Shown here piece after piece: positions 18,651 through 52,485 of a stretch of DNA of 64,000 nucleotides; position 1 is the first letter of the stretch; every line of letters starts with the position of its first letter. The stretch spans positions 103,070 to 167,069 of IMG/VR virus record IMGVR_UViG_3300012009_000091, one strand, 5' to 3'. Under the pieces are notes generated by a model that did not search any database, was not told where the DNA came from, and saw only the letters and a program-made list of their open reading frames with translations. Both the position numbers and the translations under genes were made by a program. The DNA is from a virus.

Positions 18651-19357
18651 TTCAAGAATCGTACGATAGTGGACTACGCAACTTCTCATATACGCATTTT
18701 GCGGGTGTGAATTTGAGAGGCGCGAATCTACCGGGTGCCAATTTCACGGGGGCCACACTCACGTATGTGAACTTCGTGGGTGCGTACCTACCGAATACCA
18801 ATTTCACGAGTGCTAATCTCTCGAATGCGGATTTTACGGGGGCCAGGCTCACAGGTGCCCGTCTTTCTGGCACTAACTTCACGGATGCCGTGTTAATACA
18901 TACCGCGTTCAAAAATGCTAATCTCGTGGGTGCTAACTTCACGGGTGCCACGCTCACGAACACGAGTCTCATAGGAGTCGATTTTAAGGATACCGTACTC
19001 ACAGGTACCTGCCTCGACCCGGCGGCGATTGTTCCGCCTCTCACCGATGAAGAGATTCTTGCCGCTGGTCTAGAAATAGACGGTGAGTGGGTATGCGGGT
19101 GGAGGACAGAGAGATCAAGAATCGCAGGAGGCACAAAGTACGTTCCGCGCACAGAGCCGTATGTGGCTCCCATCTTCAGCGTGGATCAATACACTTCCTG
19201 CCATCCTGGCATCTACTTGGCTGATCGTAAGTGGCTTGCTGACCATTATGGGAAACACGAGCCCGTTGTCCGCTGTCGTTGCAGACGTGATGAACTACTT
19301 CACTCCGGATATAAGTGGAGGGCAAAAAGACTCTGGATCGAGGCGGAGAAAGAATGA
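18647..19357 (+). CDS. Pentapeptide-repeat protein 1
   Basis: 236 aa. From about residue 15 to 125 the chain is a run of A(N/D)FTGA-type pentapeptides, which fold as a right-handed quadrilateral beta-helix. A conserved C-terminal domain (about 130-236) has LTDEEILAAGL, GEWVxGWRTE, CHPGIYLA, RCRCRRDEL and KRLWIE. All family members here share it, and it resembles DUF5758-like C-terminal domains of pentapeptide proteins. Role unknown. Gyrase-mimic and scaffold functions are known for other pentapeptide proteins but not shown here. Confidence 0.85.
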   Translation: MIQESYDSGLRNFSYTHFAGVNLRGANLPGANFTGATLTYVNFVGAYLPNTNFTSANLSNADFTGARLTGARLSGTNFTDAVLIHTAFKNANLVGANFTGATLTNTSLIGVDFKDTVLTGTCLDPAAIVPPLTDEEILAAGLEIDGEWVCGWRTERSRIAGGTKYVPRTEPYVAPIFSVDQYTSCHPGIYLADRKWLADHYGKHEPVVRCRCRRDELLHSGYKWRAKRLWIEAEKE

Positions 19358-19983
19358 CTATTCAGGAAGAGTACGATAGAGGGCGACGAGATTTCAGGGA
19401 CCTTGATCTCAAGGACGCTGATCTCACAAGCGCTTATCTCGTTAGCGCAGAACTCATGGGCGCGACATTCACGAGAGCATTTCTCAGATATGCTGATCTC
19501 ACGGGCGCGAATTTCACAGATACTGATCTCACAGGCGCGCAGCTTGAACATTCAAAACTCGCGGATGCCGACTTCACAGGAGCAATTCTCACGAATACAA
19601 ATCTCATGGGAACTAGGCTCACGGGTACCGTACTCACAGATACCTGTCTCGACCCGGAAGCAATTATCCCGTCTCTCATCGATGAAGAGATTATGGCCGC
19701 TGGTCTAGAAATGGATGGAGAGTGGGTATATGGGTGGAGGACAGAACAATCACAATTCGTAGGAAGCACAAAGTACGTTCCGAGAGAGGAACCGTATATT
19801 GCCCACGTCTTCAGTGTAGACCAAAATACTCCTTGTCACCCTGGAATTTATCTGGCTAGTCACGGGTGGCTTGATTACCACTACAAGAGGAGAAAACCTA
19901 TTGTCCGCTGTCACTGCAAAAGAGATGAGTTGATTCATGCCGGAGACAAATGGCGGGCAAAAAGACTCTGGATCGAGGAGTAG
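19354..19983 (+). CDS. Pentapeptide-repeat protein 2
   Basis: 209 aa, starting at ATG 19354 in an overlap with gene 1; the longer upstream frame would read through gene 1's end. It begins MTIQEEYDRGRRDF, the family's N-terminal cap. It has a shorter beta-helix (about 12-100) followed by the shared C-terminal domain. Part of its 3' end is identical to copy 5, evidence of gene conversion. Confidence 0.85.
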   Translation: MTIQEEYDRGRRDFRDLDLKDADLTSAYLVSAELMGATFTRAFLRYADLTGANFTDTDLTGAQLEHSKLADADFTGAILTNTNLMGTRLTGTVLTDTCLDPEAIIPSLIDEEIMAAGLEMDGEWVYGWRTEQSQFVGSTKYVPREEPYIAHVFSVDQNTPCHPGIYLASHGWLDYHYKRRKPIVRCHCKRDELIHAGDKWRAKRLWIEE

Positions 19984-19988
19984 AAAGA

Positions 19989-20681
19989 ATGACTATTCAG
20001 GAAGAGTATGATGAGGGGAGACGCAATTTCTCGTATATGCGTTTAGAACACGCATTCCTGAGAGGCGCAAATCTATCGGGTGCAGATTTCACGCATACCG
20101 ATCTCACGGATGCCATGTTCACGGATGCGGACCTCACGGATGCGAACTTCATGAATACACGTTTGATAAACACGATCTTCAAACGTGTTACGCTCACGAA
20201 CGCGGATTTCAGGGGTGCGGACTTAAATGGCGCAATCCTCGTAAGTACAAACTTCACGGGAGTCAATCTCACGGATGCGGACTTCGGGGGTACGCACTTG
20301 AGGGACATAATTTTCACACGCGCCACGCTCACACGTACCTGTTTCGATCCGGAGGCAAGTATCCCGACTCTCACCGATGAAGAGATTCTTGCCGCTGGTC
20401 TAGAAATGGATGGAGAGTGGGTATATGGGTGGAGGACAGAATGGTCGTCTATAAAGCAGGAGAAGTATGTTCCGTGTAAAGAGCCGTATGTGGCACCCGT
20501 CTTCAGCGTGAGTCAAAATACTCCTTGCCACCCTGGAATCTATCTGGCTGATCGTAAGTGGCTCGTGAGAGAGTACGGAAAGTACGTACCTGTTGTTCGC
20601 TGTCGTTGTAAACGATACGAATTAATTCACGCCGGAGATCAGTGGAGGGCAAAGAGACTCTGGATTGAGGAGGAGAGATGA
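19989..20681 (+). CDS. Pentapeptide-repeat protein 3
   Basis: 230 aa, ATG 19989 preceded by GGAGTAGAAAGA. Cap MTIQEEYDEGRRNFSYM, then pentapeptides to about residue 120 and the conserved C-terminal domain. The C-terminal part carries KYVPCKEPYVAPVFSV and CHPGIYLADRKW. The stop overlaps a remnant copy. Confidence 0.85.
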   Translation: MTIQEEYDEGRRNFSYMRLEHAFLRGANLSGADFTHTDLTDAMFTDADLTDANFMNTRLINTIFKRVTLTNADFRGADLNGAILVSTNFTGVNLTDADFGGTHLRDIIFTRATLTRTCFDPEASIPTLTDEEILAAGLEMDGEWVYGWRTEWSSIKQEKYVPCKEPYVAPVFSVSQNTPCHPGIYLADRKWLVREYGKYVPVVRCRCKRYELIHAGDQWRAKRLWIEEER

Positions 20682-20796
20682 GTATTCAGGGTGAGTACGA
20701 TAGAGGGCGACGAAATTTCACGGGCGCCTGTCTTGATCGGCGGTGGCGGCATCTTCACCCGCCAACGAATAGATGATTCTGGACTGAGGAGGAGAA
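20678..20796 (+). pseudogene. Collapsed pentapeptide gene remnant
   Basis: A start codon with family cap (MSIQGEYDRGRRNFTGA) is followed by an unrelated 15-residue tail and a stop at 20774-20776. The next 20 bases match the 3' end of a normal copy (TCTGGACTGAGGAGGAGAA versus CTCTGGATTGAGGAGGAG). The middle of a fifth copy has therefore been deleted or replaced, leaving only head and tail. Confidence 0.75.
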
Positions 20797-21603
20797 ATGA
20801 ACATTCAAGAGGAGTACAACGAGGGAAGACGAGACTTCTCGTATATGCGTTTAGAAGGCGTAAATTTGAAAGGCGCAAATCTATTGGGTGCAGATTTCAC
20901 GAATGCCGATTTCACGAATGCCGATTTCACAAATGCCGATTTCACGGGTGCCTACTTCAATGGTGCGTACTTAAAAGACGCGATTTTCACCCGCGCCATT
21001 CTCGATGATGCGGACTTCACGGCTGCGTACTTACACGGCGCAGTTCTCACGAAAACGAATTCCAAGAGCGCGAATTTCAACAGCGCGAACCTCGAGAATT
21101 CGACGATCAACGAAGCTAAGTTCAGACATTCTGAACTTGTGGGTACAGATCTTGAAAATGCGAATCTTGAGGGAACAGATTTCACGGGTGCCGACCTCAC
21201 GTGGGCCAATCTCATAAAGGCGAATTTCACGGGTGCCATACTCGATGGCACCTGTATCGATCCGGCAGCACCATTACCGCCTCTCACCGATGAGGAGATT
21301 CTTGTTGCTGGCCTATACCCAGAAGGTGAGTGGGTGTATGGGTGGCGAACAGAGATGTCGGCTATGAAGTGCGAGAAATATGTGCCGAGAGAGGAGCCGT
21401 ATGTGGCTCCCGTCTTCAGCGTGGATCAGAGAACTCCTTGTCACCCTGGAATCTATCTGGCTAGCCGCAAGTGGTTAATCGAGGCCCGCTGGGATCTTGT
21501 TGTTCGCTGTCGCTGCAGGCGTGATGAGCTGGTTCACGCCGGAGACAAATGGCGGGCAAAAAGACTCTGGATTGAGGAGGGGAGAAATGAATATTCAAGA
21601 TGA
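20797..21603 (+). CDS. Pentapeptide-repeat protein 4
   Basis: 268 aa, ATG after GAGGAGGAGAA. It has a long beta-helix (about 20-155) with three consecutive perfect FTNAD repeats near 31-45, then the shared C-terminal domain with GLYPEGEWVYGWRTE and CHPGIYLASRKW. Its end overlaps copy 5 by 17 bases. Confidence 0.85.
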   Translation: MNIQEEYNEGRRDFSYMRLEGVNLKGANLLGADFTNADFTNADFTNADFTGAYFNGAYLKDAIFTRAILDDADFTAAYLHGAVLTKTNSKSANFNSANLENSTINEAKFRHSELVGTDLENANLEGTDFTGADLTWANLIKANFTGAILDGTCIDPAAPLPPLTDEEILVAGLYPEGEWVYGWRTEMSAMKCEKYVPREEPYVAPVFSVDQRTPCHPGIYLASRKWLIEARWDLVVRCRCRRDELVHAGDKWRAKRLWIEEGRNEYSR

Positions 21604-22438
21604 ATACGACAATGGACGGCAAGATTTCAAGGGCCTTGATCTAACGGGTACGTTTCTCGTTGACGCGGAGCTCAAGCGCGCCGATTTCACGGACGCGAAT
21701 TTCACGGACGCTGATCTCACAGGTGTGTGTCTCAACCAGGCAACCTTGATGGGCGCGACATTCACGAGAGTACTTCTCAGATATGCTGATCTCGTGGACG
21801 CGAACTTCGCGAAAGCTGATCTCACGGGCGCGCGTCTTTATCGCGCCGACCTCACGGGTGCCACGCTCACGAATGCGACGCTCACGGACGCGAATTTCAC
21901 GGATGCGAGTCTTGCACGTGCCACGTTAGCGGGTGTCGTTCTCGCGAGCACAAATCTATCGTATGTGTCCTTTATGGATGCTGATCTCACGGACGCCGAC
22001 TTCACAGGAGCAATTCTCGCGAATACAAATCTCATGGGAACTAGGCTCACGGGTGCTGTGTTCACGAGTACCTGTCTCGACCCGGAAGCAATTATCCCGT
22101 CTCTCACGGACAAGGAGATTTTTGCCGCTGGATTGCAGCCGGTAGGTGAGTGGGTGTATGGGTGGAGGACAGAGAGATCAAAAATCGCGGGAGACACAAA
22201 GTACGTTCTGAGAGAGGAGCCGTATGTGGCGCCTGTCTTCAGCGTGAGCCAGAATACTCCTTGCCACCCCGGGATCTACTTGGCTAGTCGCAAATGGCTT
22301 GCTGACCATTATGGGAAACACGAGCCCGTTGTCCGCTGTCACTGCAAAAGAGATGAGTTGATTCATGCCGGAGACAAATGGCGGACAAGAAGACTTTGGA
22401 TTGAGGAGAATCAGACATGGGAGCACAGTCGTTCATAG
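21587..22438 (+). CDS. Pentapeptide-repeat protein 5
   Basis: 283 aa, the longest helix of the set. ATG 21587 (MNIQDEYDNGRQDF) lies in the end of copy 4 and follows GGAGGGGAGAA. The C-terminal domain is a mosaic: up to about 22,335 it is nearly identical to copy 1 (GCTTGCTGACCATTATGGG...), and after that to copy 2. Adjacent copies have clearly recombined. Confidence 0.85.
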   Translation: MNIQDEYDNGRQDFKGLDLTGTFLVDAELKRADFTDANFTDADLTGVCLNQATLMGATFTRVLLRYADLVDANFAKADLTGARLYRADLTGATLTNATLTDANFTDASLARATLAGVVLASTNLSYVSFMDADLTDADFTGAILANTNLMGTRLTGAVFTSTCLDPEAIIPSLTDKEIFAAGLQPVGEWVYGWRTERSKIAGDTKYVLREEPYVAPVFSVSQNTPCHPGIYLASRKWLADHYGKHEPVVRCHCKRDELIHAGDKWRTRRLWIEENQTWEHSRS

Positions 22439-22734: not shown

Positions 22735-22979
22735 AAACCGTAATGGAAAGATTGACGCCTGAGTCCCGTGCAAACGTGTTATGCACAGGATGTAGCTGGA
22801 TTATTCGGGAGCGGGGGGCAGAGCATCTACCTGACCATTGCCCTCAATGCGAAAAAGAGAGGTTAGAGTCAGATTGGGAAGGGCTGGCCAGGTACGATGC
22901 AGCTCGCCGCCTCTTCCAGGACTTCTGTGAGATCTATGCTCCAGATTGTGCTGAACCTACGAGAGAAAGAGGAGAATGA
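22728..22979 (+). CDS. Small cysteine-pair protein, 83 aa
   Basis: ATG 22728 preferred over GTG 22719; it overlaps the upstream stop. CTGC near residue 19 and CPQC near 38 suggest a zinc ribbon, followed by a helical acidic tail. The stop overlaps the first FGE-like gene. Confidence 0.6.
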   Translation: MLKTVMERLTPESRANVLCTGCSWIIRERGAEHLPDHCPQCEKERLESDWEGLARYDAARRLFQDFCEIYAPDCAEPTRERGE

Positions 22980-23788
22980 GTACAAATAAAAATTGTCCAG
23001 AAGGGTTTGTTTTGATCAACGCGGGACGGTTTACGATGGGATCGCCGAGTAGTGAACTGTATCGATACGACGACGAGGACCAACACGGGGTACTGATCAC
23101 TCGAGACTTCTATTTACAGGCGACGCCGGTGACACAAGGTCAATGGCGAAGAGTAATGGGAACTAACCCATCGCCATTCACGAGCTGCGGCAACGTGTAC
23201 CCGGTAGAGAGGGTGAACTGGTACGAGGCATTGGCGTACTTGAATGCACTATCAGAGTCAGAGGGGCTAGAGCCGTATTATTGCCTGACGGGCTGTCGAG
23301 GGGTATTGGGCTATAACTACGAATGCGACGAAGTGAAGACAAAAGGATTGGAGTGCGAAGGATACCGTTTGCCGACGGAAGCCGAGTGGGAGTACGCGGC
23401 GCGAGCAGGCACGGAGACGGCTTACTACAGCGGAGAGAACAGAGCGGCATGGAGCGGCTCGGACCCAAACCTGGAGCGGATAGGGTGGTACTATGGAAAC
23501 TCGAAGAACAGATCCCATCCAGTCGCGTGCAAAGAACCAAACTCTTGGGGTTTATACGATATGCTGGGGAATGTGTGTGATTGGGTGTGGGATTGGTATG
23601 GAGAATATCCTAGCTGTTCCGTGACAGACCCAGAAGGGCCGGAAACGGGCAAGTATCGAGTATTTCGAGGGGGCGGCTGGTGTAACGGCGCTCAGTACGT
23701 CCGGTCTGCGACTCGCCTCAGGCATGACCCTGCGGCCCGCAGCATCTTCCTCGGCCTGCGGCCCGCTAGAACAGTAAAATCTAGCTAG
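22976..23788 (+). CDS. FGE-sulfatase-like C-type-lectin-fold protein 1
   Basis: 270 aa. Landmarks of the formylglycine-generating-enzyme fold are GFVLINAGRFTMGSP (9-23), TPVTQGQWRRVMGTNPSPF, NWYEALAYLNALSE, GYRLPTEAEWEYAARAGT and GLYDMLGNVCDWVWDW. The catalytic Cys pair of true FGE is missing near the C-terminus. The last 41 residues (FRGGGWCNGAQYVRSAT...) have the layout of a DGR-diversified variable region. It probably displays a variable binding surface, for example on the virion or host surface. Confidence 0.8.
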   Translation: MSTNKNCPEGFVLINAGRFTMGSPSSELYRYDDEDQHGVLITRDFYLQATPVTQGQWRRVMGTNPSPFTSCGNVYPVERVNWYEALAYLNALSESEGLEPYYCLTGCRGVLGYNYECDEVKTKGLECEGYRLPTEAEWEYAARAGTETAYYSGENRAAWSGSDPNLERIGWYYGNSKNRSHPVACKEPNSWGLYDMLGNVCDWVWDWYGEYPSCSVTDPEGPETGKYRVFRGGGWCNGAQYVRSATRLRHDPAARSIFLGLRPARTVKSS

Positions 23789-23802
23789 GACAGGAGAGAA
23801 GA

Positions 23803-24645
23803 ATGATTACGGCCGAAAATTGTCCGGAAGGATTCGTTTTGATCAAAGCAGGGCAGTTTACGATGGGTTCACTGCCAAGTGAGCAGCATCGCGGTAGTGA
23901 CGAAACCAAACACCTGGTGGAGATCACACGGGATTTCTATTTGCAGACGACGCCGGTGACGCGGGGCCAGTGGCACCACTTGATAGGGAACAACCCATCG
24001 TATTTCACGCAGGGCGGCGACGAGTGCCCTGTGGAAAGCGTGAACTGGTATGAGGCATTGAGCTATCTGAATGCGTTGTCGGAGTCAGAGGGGTTAGAAC
24101 CGTATTATCGCCTGACGGGCTGTCGAGGAGTGTTGGGTTGGGGCTGCGGAGGTGGGGGGTATTATCCTGATGGCTATGTATGCTACAGCGTAGAGTCAAA
24201 AGGGTTGGATTGCGAAGGGTACCGTTTGCCGACGGAAGCCGAGTGGGAATATGCGGCGCGCGCGGGATCCTTGACGGCTTACTACAGTGGCGGGAACATT
24301 AAAGATTTAAGCCGCACAGATCCGAATCTGGCGCAGATAGGGTGGTATTACAAGAACTCGAAGAACAAAGTTCATCCAGTCGCGTGCAAAGAACCAAATG
24401 CCTGGGGTCTGTACGACATGCTGGGGAATGTGTTTGAGTGGGTGTGGGACCGGTATGATTATTATTACCCCTCTGAACCCGTTACGGACCCAGAGGGGCC
24501 AGGAACTGGTGCCCGCCGAGTGTACCGGGGAGGCAGCTGGATCAGCAAGGCGCCGCGTGCTCGGTCTGCTGCTCGCGGCTGGGTTGGCCCTATATACCGC
24601 AGCAACGTCATCGGCTTTCGGGCTGCCAGGACGGTAAAATACTAG
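23803..24645 (+). CDS. FGE-sulfatase-like C-type-lectin-fold protein 2
   Basis: 280 aa, closely related to the neighbour (GFVLIKAGQFTMGS, NWYEALSYLNALSE, GYRLPTEAEWEYAA). It has an extra Gly/Tyr loop (about 110-125). The C-terminus YRGGSWISKAPRARSAARG...RSNVIGFRAA differs from protein 1 mainly at positions that are AAC-encoded in DGR templates. Preceded by AGGAGAGAAG. Active-site cysteines are absent. Confidence 0.8.
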   Translation: MITAENCPEGFVLIKAGQFTMGSLPSEQHRGSDETKHLVEITRDFYLQTTPVTRGQWHHLIGNNPSYFTQGGDECPVESVNWYEALSYLNALSESEGLEPYYRLTGCRGVLGWGCGGGGYYPDGYVCYSVESKGLDCEGYRLPTEAEWEYAARAGSLTAYYSGGNIKDLSRTDPNLAQIGWYYKNSKNKVHPVACKEPNAWGLYDMLGNVFEWVWDRYDYYYPSEPVTDPEGPGTGARRVYRGGSWISKAPRARSAARGWVGPIYRSNVIGFRAARTVKY

Positions 24646-28414: not shown

Positions 28415-30321
28415 TGGATGTCGAACAATTGGTGCAAAAGATTCAGTACCATCGAGTGAAGTATTGGGCAGGCGAACCCGTGATTTCCGATACAGAGTTC
28501 GATCGGCTCGTCGAACAGCTACGGGAACTCGATCCCAACAATGTCATCCTGAATGAGATCGGGGTGGGGTTCATCGAAGGCCGACGGAAAGTGACTCATG
28601 AAATGCCTATGCTGTCTCTCCAGAAGTGCTACACAGTTGAGGACCTGTTGCGGTGGCGTAACAAGCTGTCGGATCCTGATTTGATTGTTAGCCCGAAGAT
28701 TGACGGTCTAGCTGTGGCGTTGCGTTACCGCAGTGGGACGTATGTTCAAGCCATCACTCGTGGAGATGGGCTAGTTGGGGATGACATCACGGAAAATATG
28801 CGGTTCGTGTCTGGCGTCGCTATGCATATTGATGAAGTTCAGGATATCGAAATCCGGGGCGAAGTGTTTATTCCTCGATCTGTTTTCGAGAACCTGTTTG
28901 CAGAGGAGTATAGCAACCCGCGAAATCTCGCGGTAGGTGCATTGAAACGCGACAACGCCAAAGAGACAGCGAAATTCTACTTGGTTTTTCAGGCCTATGA
29001 TGTTCTGGGAAAAGAGTTTTCTTTCGAGACGACCAAGTTCGACTGGCTGGCTTCAGTCAATTGCGTACCAGTTCCGGTAGAACTCGTTACGTCAGAAAAG
29101 GAGATCCGCGCTTTCCTTTTGACAACGCCTGATCAGTACCTTTATGAGATAGATGGCTTTGTGTTCAAAATTGCGAAGTGCTCTCTTCAGAAAGAGCTCG
29201 GCGCTACACGACATCATCCTCGTGGATCAATGGCGTACAAGCTTCAGGGGGATACCGGTGTGTCGTCAGTCAAGGCAATAGAGTGGCAAGTCGGCCGTAC
29301 AGGGGTGCTGACACCGGTCGCTCAGATCAAGACGATTACACTCTCTGGTGCAGTAATCAACCGAGTTAGTTTGCACAACACCAGTATCATGCGAGAGCTG
29401 GACAGCGATCTCCGGCTCTTGAATGCTTCGGTTCAAATTACGCGGCGCGGCGGGGTGATTCCCTATATCGAAAAGATGTTGACCCCTGGGGAGCCTCTTC
29501 AGGTCCCTCTGTATTGTCCGGAATGCAACGGCATCACATTCTTCGCAGACAGGGACCTGCTGTATGCAGAACACGCAATCGATTGTGCTCCGATTCTCTT
29601 GGGGACTCTGCAGCACTTCCTCAAGGTTCTTCGAGTCAAAGGATTCGGTCCTGCGATTTTGGAATCGTTGATTGAAGGCGAGTTCATTCAAACACCTGCA
29701 GACCTCTTGGGATTGACGGAAGACGACTTGCTATCCGTTGATCGGATAGGCGGAAAGCAGGCGAAGAAGCTTCTCGCTCGACTTCAAGAGGTGCGGCAGG
29801 TCCCTTTGTCAACTTTCCTCGTAGCACTAGGGATTCCCAATCTTGGGATTCAGCTCGCTTCGACATTGGCTGACCGCTACCCAACTTTGGGGGATTTGGC
29901 CAAAGCTAAAGAAGAAGATCTCCTTCAATTGCCTGGGGTAGGTGAGGTGGGATGCCGGATCGTCCAAGAGTGGCTTCCAGCTAAGAAGTACCTTATTCAG
30001 GACTTACTTAGACATATCCAAATCGAAGAAAATGTAAAGGACGAGGAGCCGATTGGGTCACTTCCCCTTGCAAACAAGTCTTTCTTGTTCACCGGTAAGC
30101 TACAGTACGCTACTCGATCTAGCGCTGAAGAGATTATCAAAAATCTCGGTGGGTCAATTGTATCTGCTGTGACTCGCAATTTAGACTATCTTGTAGTCGG
30201 AGAAACGTCTGGAGAAAGTGCCAAGCTCAAGCGAGCTCGAATGGTTCAGAGTGCTAAAGGAGCTCTTGAAATCATTGATGAGGATCAGTTTGCGCTTCTC
30301 GTTGGGAAGCGCAACCTGTAG
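28414..30321 (+). CDS. ligA: NAD-dependent DNA ligase LigA
   Basis: 635 aa, close to bacterial LigA length. ATG 28414 follows AGGAGGACC. Domain Ia (residues 1-60) with YWAGEPVISDTEFD is followed by the adenylation domain with KIDG (K95 nucleophile) and an OB fold (TGVLTPVAQIKTITLSG). The zinc-finger region has only one clear CPEC pair. Helix-hairpin-helix repeats (GKQAKKLL, GVGEVGCRI) precede a C-terminal BRCT domain (about 552-635). It seals nicks using NAD+. A reduced zinc finger is unusual and worth checking. Confidence 0.9.
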   Translation: MDVEQLVQKIQYHRVKYWAGEPVISDTEFDRLVEQLRELDPNNVILNEIGVGFIEGRRKVTHEMPMLSLQKCYTVEDLLRWRNKLSDPDLIVSPKIDGLAVALRYRSGTYVQAITRGDGLVGDDITENMRFVSGVAMHIDEVQDIEIRGEVFIPRSVFENLFAEEYSNPRNLAVGALKRDNAKETAKFYLVFQAYDVLGKEFSFETTKFDWLASVNCVPVPVELVTSEKEIRAFLLTTPDQYLYEIDGFVFKIAKCSLQKELGATRHHPRGSMAYKLQGDTGVSSVKAIEWQVGRTGVLTPVAQIKTITLSGAVINRVSLHNTSIMRELDSDLRLLNASVQITRRGGVIPYIEKMLTPGEPLQVPLYCPECNGITFFADRDLLYAEHAIDCAPILLGTLQHFLKVLRVKGFGPAILESLIEGEFIQTPADLLGLTEDDLLSVDRIGGKQAKKLLARLQEVRQVPLSTFLVALGIPNLGIQLASTLADRYPTLGDLAKAKEEDLLQLPGVGEVGCRIVQEWLPAKKYLIQDLLRHIQIEENVKDEEPIGSLPLANKSFLFTGKLQYATRSSAEEIIKNLGGSIVSAVTRNLDYLVVGETSGESAKLKRARMVQSAKGALEIIDEDQFALLVGKRNL

Positions 30322-30325
30322 TCAG

Positions 30326-30351
30326 AAAGCCCTCCTGGAGAGGGCTTTTTT
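30326..30351 (+). terminator. Rho-independent terminator of ligA
   Basis: AGCCCTC-CTGGA-GAGGGCT stem followed by five to six T, a few bases after the ligA stop. Confidence 0.9.
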
Positions 30352-30360
30352 AGGTAGGCT

Positions 30361-30459
30361 AAAAGAAGAGTACAAATAGAATTGACTCTTCTTTTACGAA
30401 ATAGAACGTCTCAATCCCCATCTGAACGGGGCACGTAGACTAGCCTTTCTCGTTACTTA
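30361..30459 (-). ncRNA. Candidate small RNA (about 95 nt)
   Basis: A GTATAAG core on the complement at 30460-30466 points left. About 65-100 bases downstream lies a perfect 11-bp hairpin (30361-30371 with 30385-30395) whose leftward arm ends in TTTTAGCC. The insert has no usable reading frame but has CCCC-GTTCAGAT-GGGG flanked by ACGT repeats. Together these give a short transcript with its own start and end. The hairpin also backs the ligA terminator. Confidence 0.5.
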
Positions 30460-30466
30460 CTTATAC
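30460..30466 (-). promoter_or_regulatory. Leftward GTATAAGTA promoter core
   Basis: CTTATAC on the given strand, GTATAAGTAA on the complement, with no gene directly downstream except the small-RNA candidate. Confidence 0.6.
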
Positions 30467-30611
30467 CTATTTCCAACGCAAAATGCACCCGCATTCTTGA
30501 CGATCACTTTGTCTCTAGAGGACAATCAAATTGCGGTGAGTACGTTCTGGTCCTCCAGTACTCGTCGTCAGGAGCCCTTGGCCCAGGGCTCCTAACTTCC
30601 TTGCATTGATG
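30467..30611. other. Noncoding region with hairpins
   Basis: No gene visible. A stem at about 30536-30562 (GAGTA and CTGG paired around TCCT) and a perfect 9-bp stem AGGAGCCCT/AGGGCTCCT (30570-30578 with 30585-30593) precede the terminator of the leftward unit. Confidence 0.5.
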
Positions 30612-30646
30612 TTAAAAAGGAAGGGGCCTGACGATCCAGGCCCCTT
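30612..30646 (-). terminator. Leftward rho-independent terminator
   Basis: On the complement, a perfect 10-bp stem AAGGGGCCTG/CAGGCCCCTT (30621-30630 with 30637-30646) is followed by CCTTTTTAAC. It ends the leftward unit of the 132-aa and 573-aa genes. Confidence 0.85.
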
Positions 30647-30692
30647 GGGTTTGAGTGCAGAAGATGACTAGCCTTCTGCACTCGAGACGACC

Positions 30693-31091
30693 TTAGAGCC
30701 ACCAGTCGCCGCGGTATACGCGGATTTCCTGGCGCTCTTCGGCCTCTTCCTCTTCCTCTGTGTCGGTCCACTTTGAGGCCGTCCAGTACTGGTTCGGTTT
30801 CCACCGAACCTGGACGGTCTCGTGAACCTCTTCTTCCTCTTCCTCTTCCACCACCCACCAAGGTTGGTGGCGGTCGAGGACCCGAACCCAGTCCTGGATG
30901 CTTCGGGCCTCGAGCTCACGCGCCACGCGCGTAACGTGCTCGAGTTCCGCAGTCTGGACCAGACCTATCTGATGTAGGTCTTGCGCGATGCAGGACGCGT
31001 CGCGCAACAAGTCCATTCCGTGCATCCAGGCCCGGATACGCCGGGCGCTGATGACCTTGACCTCCCGTCGGTCGGTTACCGTGATATGCAC
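30693..31091 (-). CDS. Hypothetical acidic protein, 132 aa
   Basis: The leftward start at 31091 has GGGGGAG before it and overlaps the end of the upstream gene by 16 bases. A basic N-terminal half is followed by two poly-Glu runs and Trp-rich ends. GC-rich like its partner. No family recognised; probably functions with the 573-aa protein. Confidence 0.65.
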   Translation of the reverse strand: MHITVTDRREVKVISARRIRAWMHGMDLLRDASCIAQDLHQIGLVQTAELEHVTRVARELEARSIQDWVRVLDRHQPWWVVEEEEEEEVHETVQVRWKPNQYWTASKWTDTEEEEEAEERQEIRVYRGDWWL

Positions 31092-32797
31092 AGTAACTCC
31101 CCCAACGAAGGGGTCAGCCCCTCAAGGCGCTTGGGCATCATCTCGTCGTTGAGATGTGCTCGACGCTCATACGCGTCGTCGAAGATCGTTACGGGCACCC
31201 CGTAACGATCTTCTAGCTCCCCCTGATGAGCTGAGTCATCCCAGGGCCGGGTAACCACGAAGAGACGGACGACTACCATCTCCTCGCTTCTCCAGCCCTC
31301 GGGCCCGGACTCTGTTCGCCCGTATCCCCGCACCTCTCCGATCACTCGTGCGTGGTCGGAGAGGCAATTAATGCCCCACTCCGCGTGAAGCCCGCCCACG
31401 TTTCGCACGCGTGCGGACTCCGGGAAGTGGTGGGCGACCATTACCGGCCGCTCCCAAGCAGTTCCCTGCTGGGGGCTCAGTAATATATCGTCAACCAGAT
31501 TCCACACACGCCAACCGACAAGGGACCCGTCTTCCGGGTCCTCTTTTGGGCGTGCAGCACGGATCTCTCTTTCCCTGACGTCCATGGACGTCAGCAGAGA
31601 ATACCATGCTTTATGGATCTGTGGGCGCAGGGAGCGGATCAGATGCCCTCGCTGGGCCCGGACCAACTTGGCGCGCCGCGCCCTTGAACTTCTGGCCCCC
31701 AGCAGAGGGTCTGATCGGAAGGCACCCGACTCAAGGCGATCTCGCCTCGTCCGCTGCGCGTTCATGGTTTCAGCCATGAACGCCACCAAGTCCTTTACGG
31801 TCTTGATGGCGGCCGTGTGCGTCCTTGGGCTGTTTACCGCCCAGGCCACCCACGATCGAGGCGAGGCATACGCCTCGGCTGCCTCGTGGCATATCTTCTC
31901 CAGGCTTACGGGACCGGCGTCCAGCGTCCAAACGAGGCCGCTTTGCGACCACCATTTGGGGTGAAGGCCGCACTGTTTTATGGTGCGAACCTCTTCGACC
32001 CCGATTCGTAGTCTGATTTTGCCCTTGTCATAGGCAACTTTTACGTCGCCATTGACTATTGCAGTCATCAACTTATCGTCGGGGTCCACCCACCGGAACC
32101 ATTTCAGCCACTTTCGGGCGGGCACGAGTGCCTGCTCTAACTGTGGCCGAATCGGCTGGAGACGCACCCACTCTGCGTGGAGACGCTCCAGCCGTGCCCA
32201 GAGACTCTCATCGTTCGGGCATACCAATTCGTCCCAGACGGCGCGGAGGAATGCGCCGCTCATCCGGGACAGCCGCTTCAACCACACGGTCTTAGTGTCG
32301 TGTGGGAGCGGCATAGGCTCACGCGCCCGGAGTTTCCTGCTCAGGCGCAGGATCGCCCGCACGCGCGTGCGGTTTCCGGGCCAGATGGGGCGTTCTGGCA
32401 GCATCGAGGCTAACGCCTTCGGATACTGCTCTGCCTTGATGCCAAGGCAGAACGCCCTGATCGCGGCTGAAGGGTCACAAGTGTACGGTGACCCCAACCG
32501 CGATGAACGCTGTTGAGTGGCGAGCCAATAGGCCACCCACTCATCCCACTTTTGGATGAGTCGGTTTGGCGGCAGCAGATTCCATCCTGCTTTCGCCAAA
32601 GCCCAGTCCACGCGATCCGCCGACCGGATTATCCCCAAACCTCGGAGCACGATCCGACCGTAGTCGGATGCGCTCTTGATTTTTCGGGCGGGCTTTGGGG
32701 AATAGCGCGCTCGAAAGGCCTCAGCGACAGTCCAGTCGCCGACTAGCCAATCCGCCTCTTCCTGGCGGAGCCAGGCGGCGGATGGAGTTGCACTCAT
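31076..32797 (-). CDS. Large basic hypothetical protein, 573 aa
   Basis: Leftward, start at 32797 with AAGGAGGAGCAC before the ATG and a hairpin between promoter and binding site. Rich in Arg, Trp and Ala, with many short helices. A central beta region (DGDVKVAYDKGKIRLRIGVEEV pattern) lies near 250-275. No nuclease or ATPase motif found. GC content is well above the rightward genes, suggesting separate origin. Function unknown. Confidence 0.65.
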   Translation of the reverse strand: MSATPSAAWLRQEEADWLVGDWTVAEAFRARYSPKPARKIKSASDYGRIVLRGLGIIRSADRVDWALAKAGWNLLPPNRLIQKWDEWVAYWLATQQRSSRLGSPYTCDPSAAIRAFCLGIKAEQYPKALASMLPERPIWPGNRTRVRAILRLSRKLRAREPMPLPHDTKTVWLKRLSRMSGAFLRAVWDELVCPNDESLWARLERLHAEWVRLQPIRPQLEQALVPARKWLKWFRWVDPDDKLMTAIVNGDVKVAYDKGKIRLRIGVEEVRTIKQCGLHPKWWSQSGLVWTLDAGPVSLEKICHEAAEAYASPRSWVAWAVNSPRTHTAAIKTVKDLVAFMAETMNAQRTRRDRLESGAFRSDPLLGARSSRARRAKLVRAQRGHLIRSLRPQIHKAWYSLLTSMDVREREIRAARPKEDPEDGSLVGWRVWNLVDDILLSPQQGTAWERPVMVAHHFPESARVRNVGGLHAEWGINCLSDHARVIGEVRGYGRTESGPEGWRSEEMVVVRLFVVTRPWDDSAHQGELEDRYGVPVTIFDDAYERRAHLNDEMMPKRLEGLTPSLGELLCISR

Positions 32798-32857
32798 TTG
32801 TGCTCCTCCTTGGGCGCTTTTGCGCCCAGTTTTTGTCTTCGTTTGATACGTATCCCG

Positions 32858-32864
32858 TTTATAC
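32858..32864 (-). promoter_or_regulatory. Leftward GTATAAA promoter core
   Basis: On the complement GGTATAAACGGG lies about 60 bases before the start of the 573-aa gene, between two GATACGT repeats. A variant of the common GTATAAG core. Confidence 0.5.
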
Positions 32865-32869
32865 CAAAC

Positions 32870-33620
32870 GTATCCCTCGTCTCACTACCGGGGCTTTGAG
32901 TGTGCCTCCACACTCCCACGTGAAACTCGATTGCGCGAGGTAGGACCATCCTATCCTCTGCAGGTCAGCTTCGTGGCCGATAGCTTCCGAGTATGCTGAT
33001 GATTGACCTGATTCACAGTGTCCAATTGTGAATCGCCATCAGCCGAAATGGGCGTGGCCAGCCCTCATGCAGTAAATTAGTGATCCGGCTTTATTGGGCT
33101 CCGGATTACGTTCTGCATATTGTTTCGTCACTGTGGTGCCACTTTCCACAGCTGTTTCTAGGGCAAGCTTCATCACTAGCTTGCAAGGATGCCTGACAGT
33201 GGACTACTGTCAGACTTTCAGAAGGCTTCTCATCTCATTACTAGAAGCAGGCTAGACTCCGTTCATGTAGACAAGTCGCATCTGTCCTTCTGATAGATCC
33301 GGTGATGTCGACTCTATTCAGAAGGCTCTACACTTCTATAAAGACGGGGGGTTAGTCATCCCCCCGGATGTTGCATCTGGGATGCCTCCCATAAACCTTG
33401 TAGGAAGTCCTACAAAGCTTACGGGAGGCACGCCCCCTTTCGGGGGCGCCTCCTTCTTCCTCATGCCCCAAAGGGGCATCTTGTGCAGCGGTGTCAGAAG
33501 CGCCTTACTGCTTCTGGCCTACTGCTTTGGGACAGCGACCTTTGTTCCGCCTCCCTGGGTGCGTAACCACCCGTCCCCCGTTTTAACGGGGGAGTTTGCC
33601 TGTGTCGCGTCATCATCGAG
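32870..33620 (-). ncRNA. Large structured noncoding RNA candidate (about 750 nt)
   Basis: No convincing gene exists here, yet perfect hairpins follow one another. Nested elements: 32995-33001/33037-33043 enclosing 33010-33017/33027-33034, 33067-33072/33113-33118 enclosing 33083-33088/33101-33106, and 33384-33390/33423-33429 enclosing 33398-33405/33408-33415. Single stems: 33193-33200/33206-33213, 33431-33437/33442-33448 (GAAA loop on the complement), 33463-33469/33473-33479, 33495-33501/33510-33516 and 33575-33581/33586-33592. Leftward orientation is inferred from the GNRA loop and flanking genes. It may be the 3' part of the 33623-33907 transcript. Confidence 0.6.
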
Positions 33621-33622
33621 CT

Positions 33623-33907
33623 CTACGCGGACGCCACAGGGGACCAATCCCCTGCGGCGAACAGGACCCCAAAAGGGATCCCGGGAGCCCAAATGAGGAG
33701 GCTGCCATCCGTAAGGATGGCGAGCTCCTCCTCGCCGGGCTCCTCTGCCGGCAATCTGCCGGCAGAGTAGAGCATCTCGATGATCAGCTGAGACGCGTAC
33801 TGATAACTCAGCCGCATCTCATCGCTGAACGCGACCTGTGAGAACGCCACTGGGTGGCACTCCCCACAGGTCGCGATTTCAACGATCGCGATCTCAAGAT
33901 TTTTCAT
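33623..33907 (-). CDS. Hypothetical protein, 94 aa
   Basis: The start at 33907 (MKNLEIAIVEIATCGEC) is chosen over 33922 because CGGGAGGAAC lies directly before it. It has a CGEC pair near residue 14, then helices, and a hydrophobic C-terminal half (LLIWAPGIPFGVLF). TATAAT lies about 50 bases upstream on the complement. The gene stands between a tRNA-like element and the structured RNA region. Confidence 0.55.
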   Translation of the reverse strand: MKNLEIAIVEIATCGECHPVAFSQVAFSDEMRLSYQYASQLIIEMLYSAGRLPAEEPGEEELAILTDGSLLIWAPGIPFGVLFAAGDWSPVASA

Positions 33908-34007
33908 GTTCCTCCCGAACATGAGTTTCGTCCCTCACGCGGAACGGCGGATCGGGCGTATTATAGGGCCGCCCAATCTTCTACCCTCTGCGGCATAGCC
34001 GCATATA

Positions 34008-34103
34008 TGCAAGCCCTGGGAATCGAACCCAGGCGACGTTTGTCGCGTCCTTGGCTTGCGGTATGGGATATTGAGTCCCATCAATGCAACTGGGCAGGTC
34101 TGC
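34008..34103 (-). tRNA. tRNA-Leu(CAA)-like gene
   Basis: On the complement: acceptor GCAGACC/GGCTTGC (one G-U, one A-C mismatch), anticodon stem TGGGA/TCCCA with loop CTCAATA (T33 present, anticodon CAA), an unusually long variable region of about 31 bases, and a canonical T-arm CTGGG-TTCGATT-CCCAG. The D-arm is irregular and no CCA is encoded. Length 96. The long variable arm fits a class II tRNA. It could be degenerate or tRNA-like. Confidence 0.5.
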
Positions 34104-34423
34104 ATATTCCTTCTACTAGGCCTTGGGAGTGGGGTGGCGCTTTTCACAGCCTCTCGTGACCATATGGTCAACCGCCTGCTCCGTACCGTTCGATTACTCA
34201 ACACGACACGCTACTTTCGTGTTGAGGGCAACTTTTTCTGACGGGGTATTGCCAAGGTCCCCCATTACGCACCCACACCAAGTTACCCCCATTTTCGCTC
34301 AGGATTTCTCTGAACTTAGGGCCCTGGGCCTTTTGGCCTATACTTGTCTTCAGCTGTTAGGGATAGCTGTTAACCAGGGTTGATGGGATGGTTATACTTG
34401 CCGCCGAATATAGTCGGCGGCGG
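34104..34423 (-). other. Structured noncoding leader between Csx3-like gene and tRNA
   Basis: No gene supported. A perfect 10-bp stem CTCAACACGA/TCGTGTTGAG lies near 34198-34227, with a GACCATATGGTC palindrome near 34158-34169. CCGCCGA/TTCGGCGG just after the Csx3-like stop (34400-34420) looks like that gene's terminator hairpin. AACAGCT is repeated near 34352-34374. Confidence 0.45.
34391..34397 (-). promoter_or_regulatory. Leftward GTATAAC promoter candidate
   Basis: On the complement AAGTATAACC follows the CCGCCGA hairpin directly, matching the terminator-promoter order seen elsewhere; it would drive the tRNA-like gene and 33623-33907. Confidence 0.4.
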
Positions 34424-35587
34424 CTATGTTGGGTCGACGGCGATGACCGTCCCCAGCTTCATAGCCGGGGAATGGGTCATCGCCACCGTCGCCCCCACCC
34501 CTGGCTGGTAACAGGCCAGCCACGGCGTATTGTGGTACGCCATGGCTAGACTGATCGTCAGCCAATTGGGGCCTCGTCCACTTAGGACGATCCCCATTCC
34601 CGGCTGCACAGCCGGGGGGGTGACGTCGTTCAGATCGTCGACGGAGAATACTCCGCCGACGATCTCAAACGTGACGACGGCGAACTCGTCCCTCTCCTCA
34701 ACGGAGAAGGACAAGTTCGCCCCAGAGCCTTCAGATGAAGGCTCTTGACACCCGATTGGGACTGTGCCCAATCGGGGGTCGTTCACGCTTGCGGCTGCCG
34801 GGTGGCAGCCGTGAACGACGGACAGACCCAACCACGCGGGGCTGGGTCCGTCAAAAACGACGTGGTCGTCGGCCCCGAAGCCCCACCCACGGAGGGTGGT
34901 GTCGATTTTGGGAAGGTCTGTGCCTTCCCAATTGATCGACGAAACCACCCTGCCGTTGGGCAGGGTCTTCGTTATCGGAGCTTTTCCCAGCAGCTCTGAG
35001 AGCTGCTGGGTGGTGATGGTGGTGTCCATCGCCGTCTCCAGTGTCCCGGCGCTGAAATCGCACCGGGACAAGACCCGCTGGGCCAGTCTTTGCATTACTG
35101 GCCCAGCGTTGACCGTTCCCCGGTGAAGCCCGACAACCGTCCCCTCTAGAGGGTGGGTGTCGGGGGAGACGGTCTCCTCTCCGGCTAGCCGGCTTTTTAG
35201 GAGGGCTATACACCGTAGCCCGAGGTCTTCCCCAAAACGCCGCCACTCGTCCATAGCTTCGTCTTTTGACGAAAGTACTACGAACGCGTCACAACGCTTG
35301 AAAATTTCCTCGTTCTGTGGTGTAATTCGTCCCCCCACATCGACCAGTGTCAGAGGTAGGCCGACATTCTCCAATCCTGTCAGGACATAGTCCATGAATG
35401 AATTGGAAAAGTCGCCCTTACGTCTGATACGCTGGACGAGTTCTTGGGGGGCCGAATTGGCCCACGTACCTTCCCCGTCCGGACAAGCCCGGAACAAGAA
35501 GGTACCTTCCCGTGGAAGCAATTGCTTCAGGGAAGCGAAAAACACCGACTTTCCGGAATGAGGAGGACCGCAGATGATTACTTTCAT
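34424..35587 (-). CDS. csx3: P-loop NTPase fused to two Csx3-like (CRISPR ring nuclease family) domains
   Basis: 387 aa, leftward. An N-terminal NTPase has Walker A GPPHSGKS (7-14) and a Walker-B-like LTLVDVGG (79-86). A degenerate Csx3-like domain (about 205-280) keeps FDGPSPAWL, H262 and the DPRLG loop (270-274). A second Csx3 domain (288-387) has SGRGPNWL (336-343), H352 and a MTHSP segment, but QPG replaces the DPR. Csx3/Crn3 enzymes cleave cyclic tetra-adenylate made by type III CRISPR systems. In a phage it probably antagonises such immunity. The His and DPR elements are divided between the two copies, suggesting a pseudo-dimeric active site. Preceded by GAGAGGAGTAGG. Confidence 0.78.
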   Translation of the reverse strand: MKVIICGPPHSGKSVFFASLKQLLPREGTFLFRACPDGEGTWANSAPQELVQRIRRKGDFSNSFMDYVLTGLENVGLPLTLVDVGGRITPQNEEIFKRCDAFVVLSSKDEAMDEWRRFGEDLGLRCIALLKSRLAGEETVSPDTHPLEGTVVGLHRGTVNAGPVMQRLAQRVLSRCDFSAGTLETAMDTTITTQQLSELLGKAPITKTLPNGRVVSSINWEGTDLPKIDTTLRGWGFGADDHVVFDGPSPAWLGLSVVHGCHPAAASVNDPRLGTVPIGCQEPSSEGSGANLSFSVEERDEFAVVTFEIVGGVFSVDDLNDVTPPAVQPGMGIVLSGRGPNWLTISLAMAYHNTPWLACYQPGVGATVAMTHSPAMKLGTVIAVDPT

Positions 35588-35688
35588 CCTACTCCTCTCA
35601 CCAGAGAGTCATTTGCGCTCTACTCTTTCTGCTTGCACCCTACTGCAAGTGGAAATTTCAAGCTCCTGGGAAGACCTCCCAGTCGGGC

Positions 35689-35737
35689 AATTGACGAAAA
35701 TTGTTTTTACGTGACGCTCGTCAATTTGGTGCGTCAC
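35689..35737 (-). promoter_or_regulatory. H-type pseudoknot in leader of Csx3-like gene
   Basis: Two perfect stems interleave: 35689-35696 with 35719-35726 (8 bp) and 35711-35717 with 35731-35737 (7 bp). They lie about 100-150 bases before the start codon on the transcribed complement. A further 6-7-bp stem ACGCGG/CCGCGT (35745-35761) lies upstream. Probable regulatory RNA fold. Confidence 0.5.
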
Positions 35738-35775
35738 TATAAATACGCGGTTCTCGCCGCGTAAATAAAAATGGT

Positions 35776-36045
35776 TTAGCATCTGGTCAGGTAGGAAAGA
35801 CCAGGGATCATCAGGAAGATGATCTCCGCAAAGGACTTGCGGACCGTGCCCCGAGGATCGGGGTCTTTACAGAACTCATCCAGCATGTTGCATGCTGGGC
35901 AACCTACAAGGCGGACCGGGTTCTGATTCCAGTCCGACAGGAGTGCATTACGCTGCACAAACGACCACCATAACCTGGCAGTGGAGTCCGGAAATTCGCT
36001 TCCGGAACGGGTGGATCTTACCGAGTAACCACCATCTCGGCCCAT
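35776..36045 (-). CDS. Hypothetical protein, up to 89 aa
   Basis: The leftward frame has no ribosome-binding site at its first ATG (36045); a shorter start inside is possible. The C-terminal part has a CPAC pair and a hydrophobic tail (AEIIFLMIPGLSYL). Positioned between two structured noncoding stretches. Moderately credible only. Confidence 0.4.
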   Translation of the reverse strand: MGRDGGYSVRSTRSGSEFPDSTARLWWSFVQRNALLSDWNQNPVRLVGCPACNMLDEFCKDPDPRGTVRKSFAEIIFLMIPGLSYLTRC

Positions 36046-36244
36046 GTTTAATGCTATTGGGGTGCAGGGACCTCTACGCGAGGTTGGCGGTGTAGATTTA
36101 GCTCTACACGAACTGATACTTGGTATTTTAGTCTGTAGTACCTTCAGACTATCCAGCTATGGCACTGGATGGCCAACAATCTAAGCCTGATTGCCCAAGG
36201 CAGCTCTTACCCAGAACTTGGGGAGTTCATACCCAGAACTCATA

Positions 36245-49596: not shown

Positions 49597-50979
49597 ATGC
49601 CTGAAGAATATGATCCTAGACTTGATGAGGCTCCCCCTTCGGCGGCTGAAATTGCAACGTTGACCGGGTTAGGCGCGGCATCGATTGCCGCGCCCTATAC
49701 TTCACAGTTTACGCGAGCTGTTCACCATTTGGGGTCGCTTGAATCGGACAAACGTTTGACCAGCAAACTAATACGTCGTCTAGAGGATGCGGCAGACGTG
49801 GCCCGCGGTACTGTGACGCGTTTTTCAGATCTACCGCCTGGCGGTGAGTTTACTGCTACGGGGCTTAACATTTCCCCTAAAGGGGTGAAGGTATTTTCTC
49901 CATATGTGGAGGTTTCTTCTTATACTCCTCCGTTTACGGTGGCCCATGAATTAGGTCACGCCCAGCAGGGAAAATCAAAAGCTCGCATTCTGCTTTCCGG
50001 CTTGTTGAAAAGCAGATTCATGAAGTATGCGCCGGCCTTTGGGGCGGCGGTGGCAGATCCTGATTCTGTCGAAGGTAAATATATCGTTCCTGGTCTAGGG
50101 ATCGCTCGTGGAGTACATACATTAGGCGATGAAGCCGGTGCGTGGGTGCGGGGAAGAAATATCCTTCGTCGGGCCGGATTACCGACAAAAGGATTAGCTC
50201 GGTCAGCGTCTGGGGCGTTGCTGTCGTATTTGCCACAGATGGTGGCGGCCGGATCGATCCCTCTTGCTATTCGAGCTATCAAGAAACGATTGGCTGGAGG
50301 TGGAGGACGCGCTGAAGAACCCTTGAAAGAGGCGGCCCGCAAACTCGACGGCAAGTATCGTTTTCAAGGTTTTCCGATTTCCATTGAAACCGCGAAGGGG
50401 GCCACTCGTTCGGGTATCGATAAAGACGGTCGTGAATGGTCCGTCAAGATGAACTGTGATTATGGCTATATCCGAGGGACGGAAGGGTATGATGGAGAAC
50501 ATCTCGATGTTTTCATCGGTCCCCACGAAGATTCCATCTCGGTGTTTGTGGTCCGGCAGATTCATCCGGACACGAAGAAGTTCGACGAGGACAAAGTGTT
50601 GCTTGGGTTCAAGTCCCAAGAGAAAGCGCTCAAGACCTATCTCGGCAACTATGATCGGAAAGATCATGTAGACGGGATTCGGGAGATCCCCCTCGACGCT
50701 TTCCGTGCTATGATTAAAGTGCACAAGGGGAAAAAATTGACTGACACCGACACGATCCAAAAGGTCGCCCAGTTTCTCCTTCCCGGATTCCGTATTGTTC
50801 TAGCGGCTGAGAACGCGAGTGCACCTCGGTTAAGCGGGGGGTTGAAAGGAACTACCGGCAAGAAACCGAAACCACCCGCGATGAATCTCACACAGGGCAG
50901 TATCAGTGTTCCTGGTATGCGAACCGGATCCACAGCGACTGACACCAACTTGATGCCGAAGATCCGCTCCGATTCTTAG
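49597..50979 (+). CDS. Polyvalent protein: metallopeptidase-like plus inorganic-pyrophosphatase-like domain
   Basis: 460 aa. Near residue 114 the sequence AHELGHAQQ gives a zinc-peptidase-type HExxH. The C-terminal half (about 248-395) has KLDGKYRFQGFPISIE, NCDYGYIRGTEG, DGEHLDVFIGP and GFKSQEKALKTYLG, the signature of the InPase-like domain of phage polyvalent proteins. A QKVAQFLLPG tail follows. Such proteins are injected with DNA and counter host defences or remodel the cell. Binding site weak. Confidence 0.6.
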   Translation: MPEEYDPRLDEAPPSAAEIATLTGLGAASIAAPYTSQFTRAVHHLGSLESDKRLTSKLIRRLEDAADVARGTVTRFSDLPPGGEFTATGLNISPKGVKVFSPYVEVSSYTPPFTVAHELGHAQQGKSKARILLSGLLKSRFMKYAPAFGAAVADPDSVEGKYIVPGLGIARGVHTLGDEAGAWVRGRNILRRAGLPTKGLARSASGALLSYLPQMVAAGSIPLAIRAIKKRLAGGGGRAEEPLKEAARKLDGKYRFQGFPISIETAKGATRSGIDKDGREWSVKMNCDYGYIRGTEGYDGEHLDVFIGPHEDSISVFVVRQIHPDTKKFDEDKVLLGFKSQEKALKTYLGNYDRKDHVDGIREIPLDAFRAMIKVHKGKKLTDTDTIQKVAQFLLPGFRIVLAAENASAPRLSGGLKGTTGKKPKPPAMNLTQGSISVPGMRTGSTATDTNLMPKIRSDS

Positions 50980-51035
50980 TTCACCAGAGTTCCCTCTGTA
51001 CTTTTCATATCAGCTCCTCTATAGTTGCGAAGTCA

Positions 51036-51042
51036 GTATAAG
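51036..51042 (+). promoter_or_regulatory. GTATAAG phage promoter core
   Basis: AGTATAAGCTGAC 38 bases before ATG 51080. Confidence 0.65.
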
Positions 51043-51079
51043 CTGACACATACATGTGTAACTATATAGGAGAAGAACA

Positions 51080-52099: not shown

Positions 52100-52107
52100 A
52101 CCCTAAG

Positions 52108-52169
52108 TGCGCATTTCTGCGCACAACTCCTTAGTTCATAACAGGAGCTCCGCTAGGAGTTTCTGTTAG
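52108..52169 (+). terminator. Two hairpins after DUF932 gene
   Basis: GTGCGCA-TTTC-TGCGCAC (7 bp, about 52108-52125) is followed by TAACAG-AGCTCC...GGAGTT-CTGTTA (12 bp, one G-U). No long T-run, so a processing signal or weak terminator is as likely. Confidence 0.45.
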
Positions 52170-52248
52170 CTTACGTAGGCTAAAAAAGTGAGCACGGTTC
52201 TCTAGGCTGATATGGATGAAGGCCAGTATAGAACTTCTTACCGCATAC

Positions 52249-52292
52249 TAAAAATACGCGGGTCCGACTTACTCCTTTTGTCTCGCCGCGTA
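52249..52292 (-). terminator. Leftward terminator
   Basis: On the complement TACGCGG pairs with CCGCGTA across 24 bases and is followed by TTTTTAG; just after the 51-aa gene. Confidence 0.65.
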
Positions 52293-52300
52293 CTGTAGAG

Positions 52301-52456: not shown

Positions 52457-52478
52457 GTTTCCTCCGTTTCTCTAATTA

Positions 52479-52485
52479 CTTATAC
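52479..52485 (-). promoter_or_regulatory. Leftward GTATAAGTA promoter core
   Basis: TTTTTTAGTATCCTGTATAAG on the complement: T-run terminator, then AGTATCC, then promoter. Confidence 0.7.

Follow-up and report, generated by a model that had tools for sequence, protein, structure and literature searches.

A phage-borne P-loop NTPase fused to tandem Csx3 copies, and its viral and bacterial relatives

Csx3 is an enzyme fold that degrades an alarm molecule of bacterial defence against viruses. In Crn3/Csx3 of Archaeoglobus fulgidus (AfCsx3; 6YUD, 3WZI), cA4 is sandwiched by two dimers, one face of the site providing S44/G45/R46, D69 and R71 and the other H57, H60 and H80; the D69A and H60A variants, each inactive, regain activity once mixed (PMC7371418). 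Viruses are known to carry ring nucleases of other kinds, AcrIII-1 (DUF1874) and AcrIII-2 (viral SAVED) being the precedents (PMC12751052, PMC12409355). A survey of 28,114 phages reported AcrIII-1, Csx20 and Csx16 and not Crn3 (Hoikkala et al. 2025; PMC12409355), and we found no description of a phage Crn3 in the open-access literature. Fusions of Csx3 to a P-loop NTPase are catalogued by PADLOC in two forms: AAA-Csx3 (C3a67, PDLC01059), and Csx3-AAA (Csx3', PDLC01045) of cyanobacterial type III loci, in which Csx3 comes first and Cas10 is adjacent or on the same cyanobacterial plasmid. One protein of the latter form, on a Pseudanabaena plasmid, has two Csx3 copies.

Here we describe an AAA-Csx3 gene in the last 64 kb (the window) of a 167,069-base IMG/VR record. 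The source is a large tailed phage: the first 100 kb of the record encode families of the large terminase subunit, baseplate wedge, phage DNA polymerase, DnaB helicase, primase and UvsX-like recombinase, confirming the phage context proposed by the first-pass annotation, and in the window the gene is flanked by NAD-dependent DNA ligase, thymidine kinase and thymidylate kinase. Elsewhere in the record (50236-56478; 10236-16478 of locus L041) lies a fused multisubunit-type RNA polymerase, a single chain of 2080 residues with Rpb2 (RNA polymerase beta) domains followed by Rpb1 (beta-prime) domains. From ORF translations only, the window also contains, at 18647-22438 and 22976-24645, several related pentapeptide-repeat-like proteins in tandem with a common C-terminal part and, after them, two similar formylglycine-generating-enzyme-like (SUMF1-like) proteins.

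The 387-residue ORF is a genuine P-loop NTPase-Csx3-Csx3 gene on a phage contig, and a ribosome-binding-like GAGGAG lies directly 5' of its ATG start (coordinates in the table). Its N-terminal domain matches PADLOC PDLC01515 over residues 1-171 with an E-value of 1.4e-48; the Walker A motif is unchanged across the four full-length relatives in the alignment, and a conserved ACPDGEGTW and a Walker B-like VDVGG are present as well. Foldseek against the PDB places this domain near MinD/ParA, SRP54 and adenylate/shikimate kinases (E about 1e-3). The P-loop NTPase assignment made at first pass is thereby upheld. The description of the protein as NTPase-driven finds no such support, and the same P-loop domain also occurs alone.

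Table. Coordinates of the phage gene, its motifs and the hairpin-dense block in the window, and of related genes in other loci.
Locus	Feature	Position	Strand	Basis or remark
Window	ORF P-loop NTPase - Csx3-like - Csx3, 387 aa	34424..35587	-	Profile matches, including PADLOC C3a67
Window	P-loop NTPase domain, residues 1-175	35063..35587	-	PADLOC PDLC01515, Foldseek neighbours
Window	Walker A GPPHSGKS, residues 7-14	35546..35569	-	Alignment
Window	Middle Csx3-like copy, residues 189-287	34727..35023	-	Second PF09620 stretch, hhalign
Window	H259-G-C-H262, middle copy	34802..34813	-	Aligned with H57/H60 of AfCsx3
Window	D270-P-R272, middle copy	34772..34780	-	Aligned with D69-P-R71 of AfCsx3
Window	C-terminal Csx3 copy, residues 288-384	34436..34726	-	PF09620, TIGR02579, Foldseek, hhalign
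Window	SGRGPNWL, residues 336-343	34559..34582	-	Equivalent to the cA4-contacting S44/G45/R46 loop (roles: PMC7371418)
Window	H352, C-terminal copy	34532..34534	-	H60 equivalent
Window	Q361-P-G363, C-terminal copy	34499..34507	-	Replaces D69-P-R71
Window	H372, C-terminal copy (within THS)	34472..34474	-	H80 equivalent
Window	Short perfect hairpins, dense block, contains the Csx3 ORF	30290..36151	.	GC about 58-62% in most of the block
L008 (Clostridia)	P-loop-Csx3-Csx3 gene	10001-11470
L008 (Clostridia)	Second tandem Csx3 gene	13002-13985
L009 (Clostridia)	P-loop-Csx3-Csx3 gene	4701-6170
L009 (Clostridia)	Second tandem Csx3 gene	7666-9261
L045 (G676, IMGVR_UViG_3300026484_000007)	Csx3 gene	5980-6276	+
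L045 (G676)	P-loop gene	6298-6933	-	Convergent with the Csx3 gene
L046 (viral)	Csx3 gene	375-746
L047 (viral)	Csx3 gene	5914-6195
L051 (viral)	Csx3 gene	4911-5246
L052 (viral)	Csx3 gene	4896-5207
L053 (viral)	Csx3 gene	4731-5273		W for R46

PF09620 (Cas_csx3) matches the protein in two stretches (E = 2.6e-25, 88.5 bits, cut-off 21), and in a DNA search these score 70.4 and 23.6 bits. Because each copy alone exceeds the curated Pfam cut-off, we rejected a chance motif match. NCBIfam TIGR02579 (E = 9.9e-26, 89.9 bits, cut-off 55.4) and the PDB sequence of the solved AfCsx3 (E = 1.6e-15) also match the window protein. A full-length AlphaFold2 model, built on an alignment of 15 sequences, has a mean pLDDT of 82 and a pTM of 0.57; in Foldseek the predicted C-terminal copy matches AfCsx3 (3WZG) at 35% identity, with an rmsd of 1.4 and a TM of 0.86 by target length, and hhalign pairs this copy with classical Csx3 at a probability of 99.6. 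Sequence, profile and fold all identify the C-terminal copy as Csx3 without doubt, and the signature picked out at first pass (SGRGPNWL, H352, THS) is sound.

The middle copy, which carries FDGPSPAWL, gives a more partial picture. Its family profile aligns with classical Csx3 over 39 columns that make up the GxxPxWL-HxxH-DPR core (hhalign probability 97.1), and when modelled alone by AlphaFold (pLDDT 84) it returned a weak Csx3 match (Foldseek E = 0.18, TM 0.43). We take this copy to be a Csx3 homologue in its core, with a weaker, half-domain match and a full fold that is predicted weakly. The first-pass annotation had called it degenerate; homology stands, although the match is partial, and the copy is fuller than was described in that it also keeps H259/H262. 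Profile and structure comparison of the two domains thus came out firmly for the C-terminal copy, and for the middle copy by profile more than by structure.

We compared the AfCsx3 catalytic and binding residues in our own alignment of 25 Csx3 domains. The middle copy keeps the equivalents of H57, H60, D69 and R71 (H259, H262, D270 and R272) and lacks those of S44, R46 and H80, while the C-terminal copy keeps S44, G45, R46, H60 and H80 (S336, G337, R338, H352 and H372) and has M349, Q361 and G363 in place of H57, D69 and R71. The D69/R71 equivalents of the window protein are therefore found in the middle copy only, in agreement with the first-pass reading of DPR in that copy and QPG in the last. 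All of the residues checked (S44, G45, R46, H57, H60, D69, R71 and H80) are present across the two copies; H57, H60, D69, R71 and H80 occur together in neither, and the set is completed only by both copies jointly.

We propose, tentatively and at a little under an even chance, that the phage AAA-Csx3 member acts in counter-defence, capturing and probably cleaving a cyclic oligoadenylate such as cA4 or a similar host alarm nucleotide. In the scheme we infer, which takes in ligand, cleavage, stacking geometry, NTPase role and counter-defence role, Csx3 units would hold the ligand between them in a Crn3-like manner: the C-terminal copies would contribute H352, H372 and the binding loop SGR, and H259/H262, D270 and R272 would come from the middle ones. 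Having two copies in one chain would promote the stacked active arrangement, which AfCsx3 attains only by tetramerising: a dimer of the fused chain could equal the AfCsx3 tetramer, the C-terminal copies facing the middle copies around one cyclic nucleotide. The P-loop domain might gate this assembly or couple it to nucleotide state. The complementary residues across copies, together with the rescue of activity when D69A and H60A AfCsx3 are mixed (PMC7371418), argue for this proposal. The viral ring nucleases AcrIII-1 and AcrIII-2 are a precedent for it (PMC12751052, PMC12409355), having the same proposed task, the removal of cyclic oligoadenylate during infection; their folds are unrelated to the window protein, and a Pfam search of that protein returned no DUF1874 or SAVED match. 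Against it, each copy is incomplete (H57, D69 and R71 missing from the C-terminal one, S44/R46 and H80 from the middle one), and the middle copy is only weakly Csx3-like by predicted structure.

That incompleteness could also describe a sponge, in which SGR loops would bind cA4 or a related signal tightly while a degenerate active site left it uncut. The S336-G337-R338 loop and H372 are kept while the catalytic D and R are absent from the same copy, and Csx15, which is slow or sponge-like, offers a precedent (PMC13148439). However, the middle copy retains D270/R272 and H259/H262, and a sponge has been argued to be a poor fit for type III signals because they are produced in such quantity (PMC13148439); we consider it improbable.

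The architecture of the window protein is already catalogued, because C3a67 matches it end to end (residues 3-384 on profile positions 7-379 of 382, E = 1.8e-67). Bacterial relatives, 31-43% identical, share its domain order and P-loop-Csx3-Csx3 layout, whereas Csx3-AAA unites the same two domain families in reverse order. With C3a67 in existence and the layout shared by bacteria, a unique phage invention is ruled out, and the earlier reading finds no support on this point. A genome scan identified five bacterial loci of the family; family searches were positive in six of 380 genomes in one Patescibacteria phylum sample, in three of 247 in the order around L007 and in three of 25 in one family, while 291 genomes of the class Clostridia gave no match beyond the query genome itself. 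The bacterial loci include full P-loop-Csx3-Csx3 proteins, solo P-loop proteins and Csx3-P-loop fusions. A Doudnabacteria P-loop-Csx3-Csx3 copy (L010, 2766-3937) lies in two overlapping frames, through a frameshift or an assembly error, and a viral-classed contig (L012, 10001-10603) that resembles a haloarchaeal region with a CRISPR-array-like repeat encodes a solo Csx3-associated P-loop domain. The P-loop tree does not resolve the phage branch and supports neither direction of gene transfer.

Compared with AfCsx3, whose fold and whose SGR, H60 and H80 positions the C-terminal copy shares, the window protein differs not only in the residues that this copy lacks but also in being fused, in tandem and with a P-loop domain added. 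QPG is found in the C-terminal copy of all eight aligned P-loop/tandem Csx3 proteins, and the middle copies vary. In the three aligned full-length proteins of the Patescibacteria group (L007, L061 and L027), the nearest relatives of the phage protein, the middle copy keeps H57/H60 and has NSPDG in place of the DPR loop, leaving D69/R71 missing in both copies, whereas the phage member keeps D-P-R. This absence of D270/R272 from the closest kin counts against the counter-defence proposal. Two Clostridia P-loop-Csx3-Csx3 proteins have DIR/DVR and no histidines in the middle copy, and each is adjoined by a second tandem-Csx3 gene with the histidines present (one of them one column off in the alignment) and D/R absent, so that these gene pairs look, from aligned residues, as if one active site were divided between two proteins. 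Since the patterns in Patescibacteria and Clostridia differ, the D/H division between copies is, as far as the alignment goes, not a fixed trait of the AAA-Csx3 family. The active site shared between copies, as first proposed, thus holds for the window protein in that its set is complete only jointly, and fails as a conserved arrangement.

Cas10 (PF22335) was absent from all 14 bacterial genomes that match the C3a67 family (mostly MAGs and possibly incomplete, some matching in the P-loop part only) and present on all three of the cyanobacterial plasmids that served as positive controls; Cas1 was present in two of the 14. A few of the Cas10 absences could be missing MAG data, yet 0/14 against 3/3 is a clear contrast. 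The AAA-Csx3 family therefore probably works largely outside type III CRISPR, and the ligand it usually handles may be something other than a type III product. For the phage protein, close kin that mostly lack type III CRISPR weaken the direct anti-CRISPR inference; the lack of Cas10 is thus a point against counter-defence as well as against CRISPR as the target named at first pass, and an anti-CRISPR role for the window protein is possible.

The scarcity of Cas10 and Cas1 also favours a CRISPR-independent regulator, in which the Csx3 (STAS-like) copies would bind a nucleotide uncut and control the P-loop NTPase, the phage having taken a bacterial gene for host takeover or metabolism. Csx3 has been unified with the STAS fold in the literature (PMC7159879), a solo P-loop domain exists, and the loss of D69/R71 in Patescibacterial members and the C-terminal QPG of every aligned member point the same way. 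We regard this regulator as a real but doubtful alternative: the phage copy retains D-P-R and the His positions, which would be needless in such a role, and unrelated phages have stand-alone Csx3 proteins with intact catalytic sets, one of them adjoining a P-loop gene.

These phages came from 2.9 million IMG/VR contigs, among which six further contigs (G676-G681) carry PF09620 above the cut-off, in scans that rely on short patterns and may miss close kin of the record that contains the window. G676 (272 kb), G677 (42 kb), G678 (45 kb), G679 (90 kb) and G680 (93 kb) have the complete catalytic set, with S or E at position 44 followed by G45, R46, H57, H60, D69-P-R71 and H80; the sole difference in G681 (42 kb) is W for R46. 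Terminase (phrog_2) is present in G676, G677, G680 and G681, G680 also encodes an endolysin, G678 encodes SbcCD-like and Holliday-junction resolvase proteins, and in G679 phage primase, UvsX-like and ribonucleotide reductase families adjoin the Csx3 gene. Scans of viral contigs with the single protein, the P-loop domain alone or the C-terminal subfamily found nothing, PHROGs gave no match, and tblastn of the window protein, two viral Csx3 and the P-loop protein against 50,697 deposited phages returned zero matches.

Like the window protein, the six are Csx3 on viral contigs; they differ from it in being single unfused domains, five of them catalytically complete. In G676 a 211-residue P-loop protein encoded on the opposite strand ends 21 bp from the stand-alone Csx3 gene and belongs to the same P-loop family (5e-14 against the Csx3-associated P-loop model, 6e-10 against the window P-loop domain). 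That Csx3 and a P-loop gene adjoin each other outside bacteria too argues for a functional connection of the two domains. The G676 Csx3 gene has a GC content of 47% in a locus of 30% GC. These contigs are a point in favour of the counter-defence proposal for the phage AAA-Csx3 member, and they are themselves a stronger anti-CRISPR lead than the window protein.

The gene also lies in a block of about 6 kb that contains about 50 perfect hairpins, with stems of 7-15 bp and sequences that are all different, in coding and non-coding DNA alike; most of this block is at 58-62% GC, against 52% for the phage. Counting stems of 7 bp or longer, the Csx3 ORF has nine hairpins, where synonymous-codon shuffles averaged near 1 and never exceeded 5, and a 573-residue ORF (31076-32797) has 10 against 1.5 expected under synonymous shuffling. 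This neighbour of the Csx3 gene has a GC content of 61% and no Pfam match. Within the phage, hairpins are densest in the 2-kb bin at 33-35 kb of the window; in G676 and the G245 contig, too, the densest bins coincide with their Csx3/P-loop genes. In a test over 15 contigs, three of which had already been seen when it was set up, enrichment at the gene was uneven (six with P < 0.05; Fisher combined 7e-5). The block may be an acquired island or structured mRNA, and it is independent of the Csx3 finding.

A phage-carried defence module, directed against competing phages or mobile elements, would suit a gene in a GC-rich, hairpin-rich block whose other ORFs have no assignment, and PADLOC places the family among defence-associated proteins. 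We nevertheless think it very unlikely, as the neighbours tested included no recognisable gene for a nucleotide cyclase or an effector.

Beyond the single phage, we would put forward a broader scenario only as a rather unlikely one: a CRISPR-free Csx3 lineage, fused to or paired with a P-loop NTPase of its own, would move between Cas10-less bacteria (Patescibacteria and Clostridia) and phages, handling a cyclic-nucleotide signal other than those of type III systems, with the sandwich site variously split, between tandem copies in the phage and between neighbouring proteins in Clostridia, and hinting at an undescribed bacterial signalling or defence pathway that phages counter. The presence of Csx3 in Cas10-less bacteria raises the question of which nucleotide is its substrate. 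The viral Csx3 contigs are amenable to existing assays, and the seven Csx3-bearing IMG/VR contigs, of which five have the catalytic set intact, would bring a third fold into the viral anti-type III arsenal.
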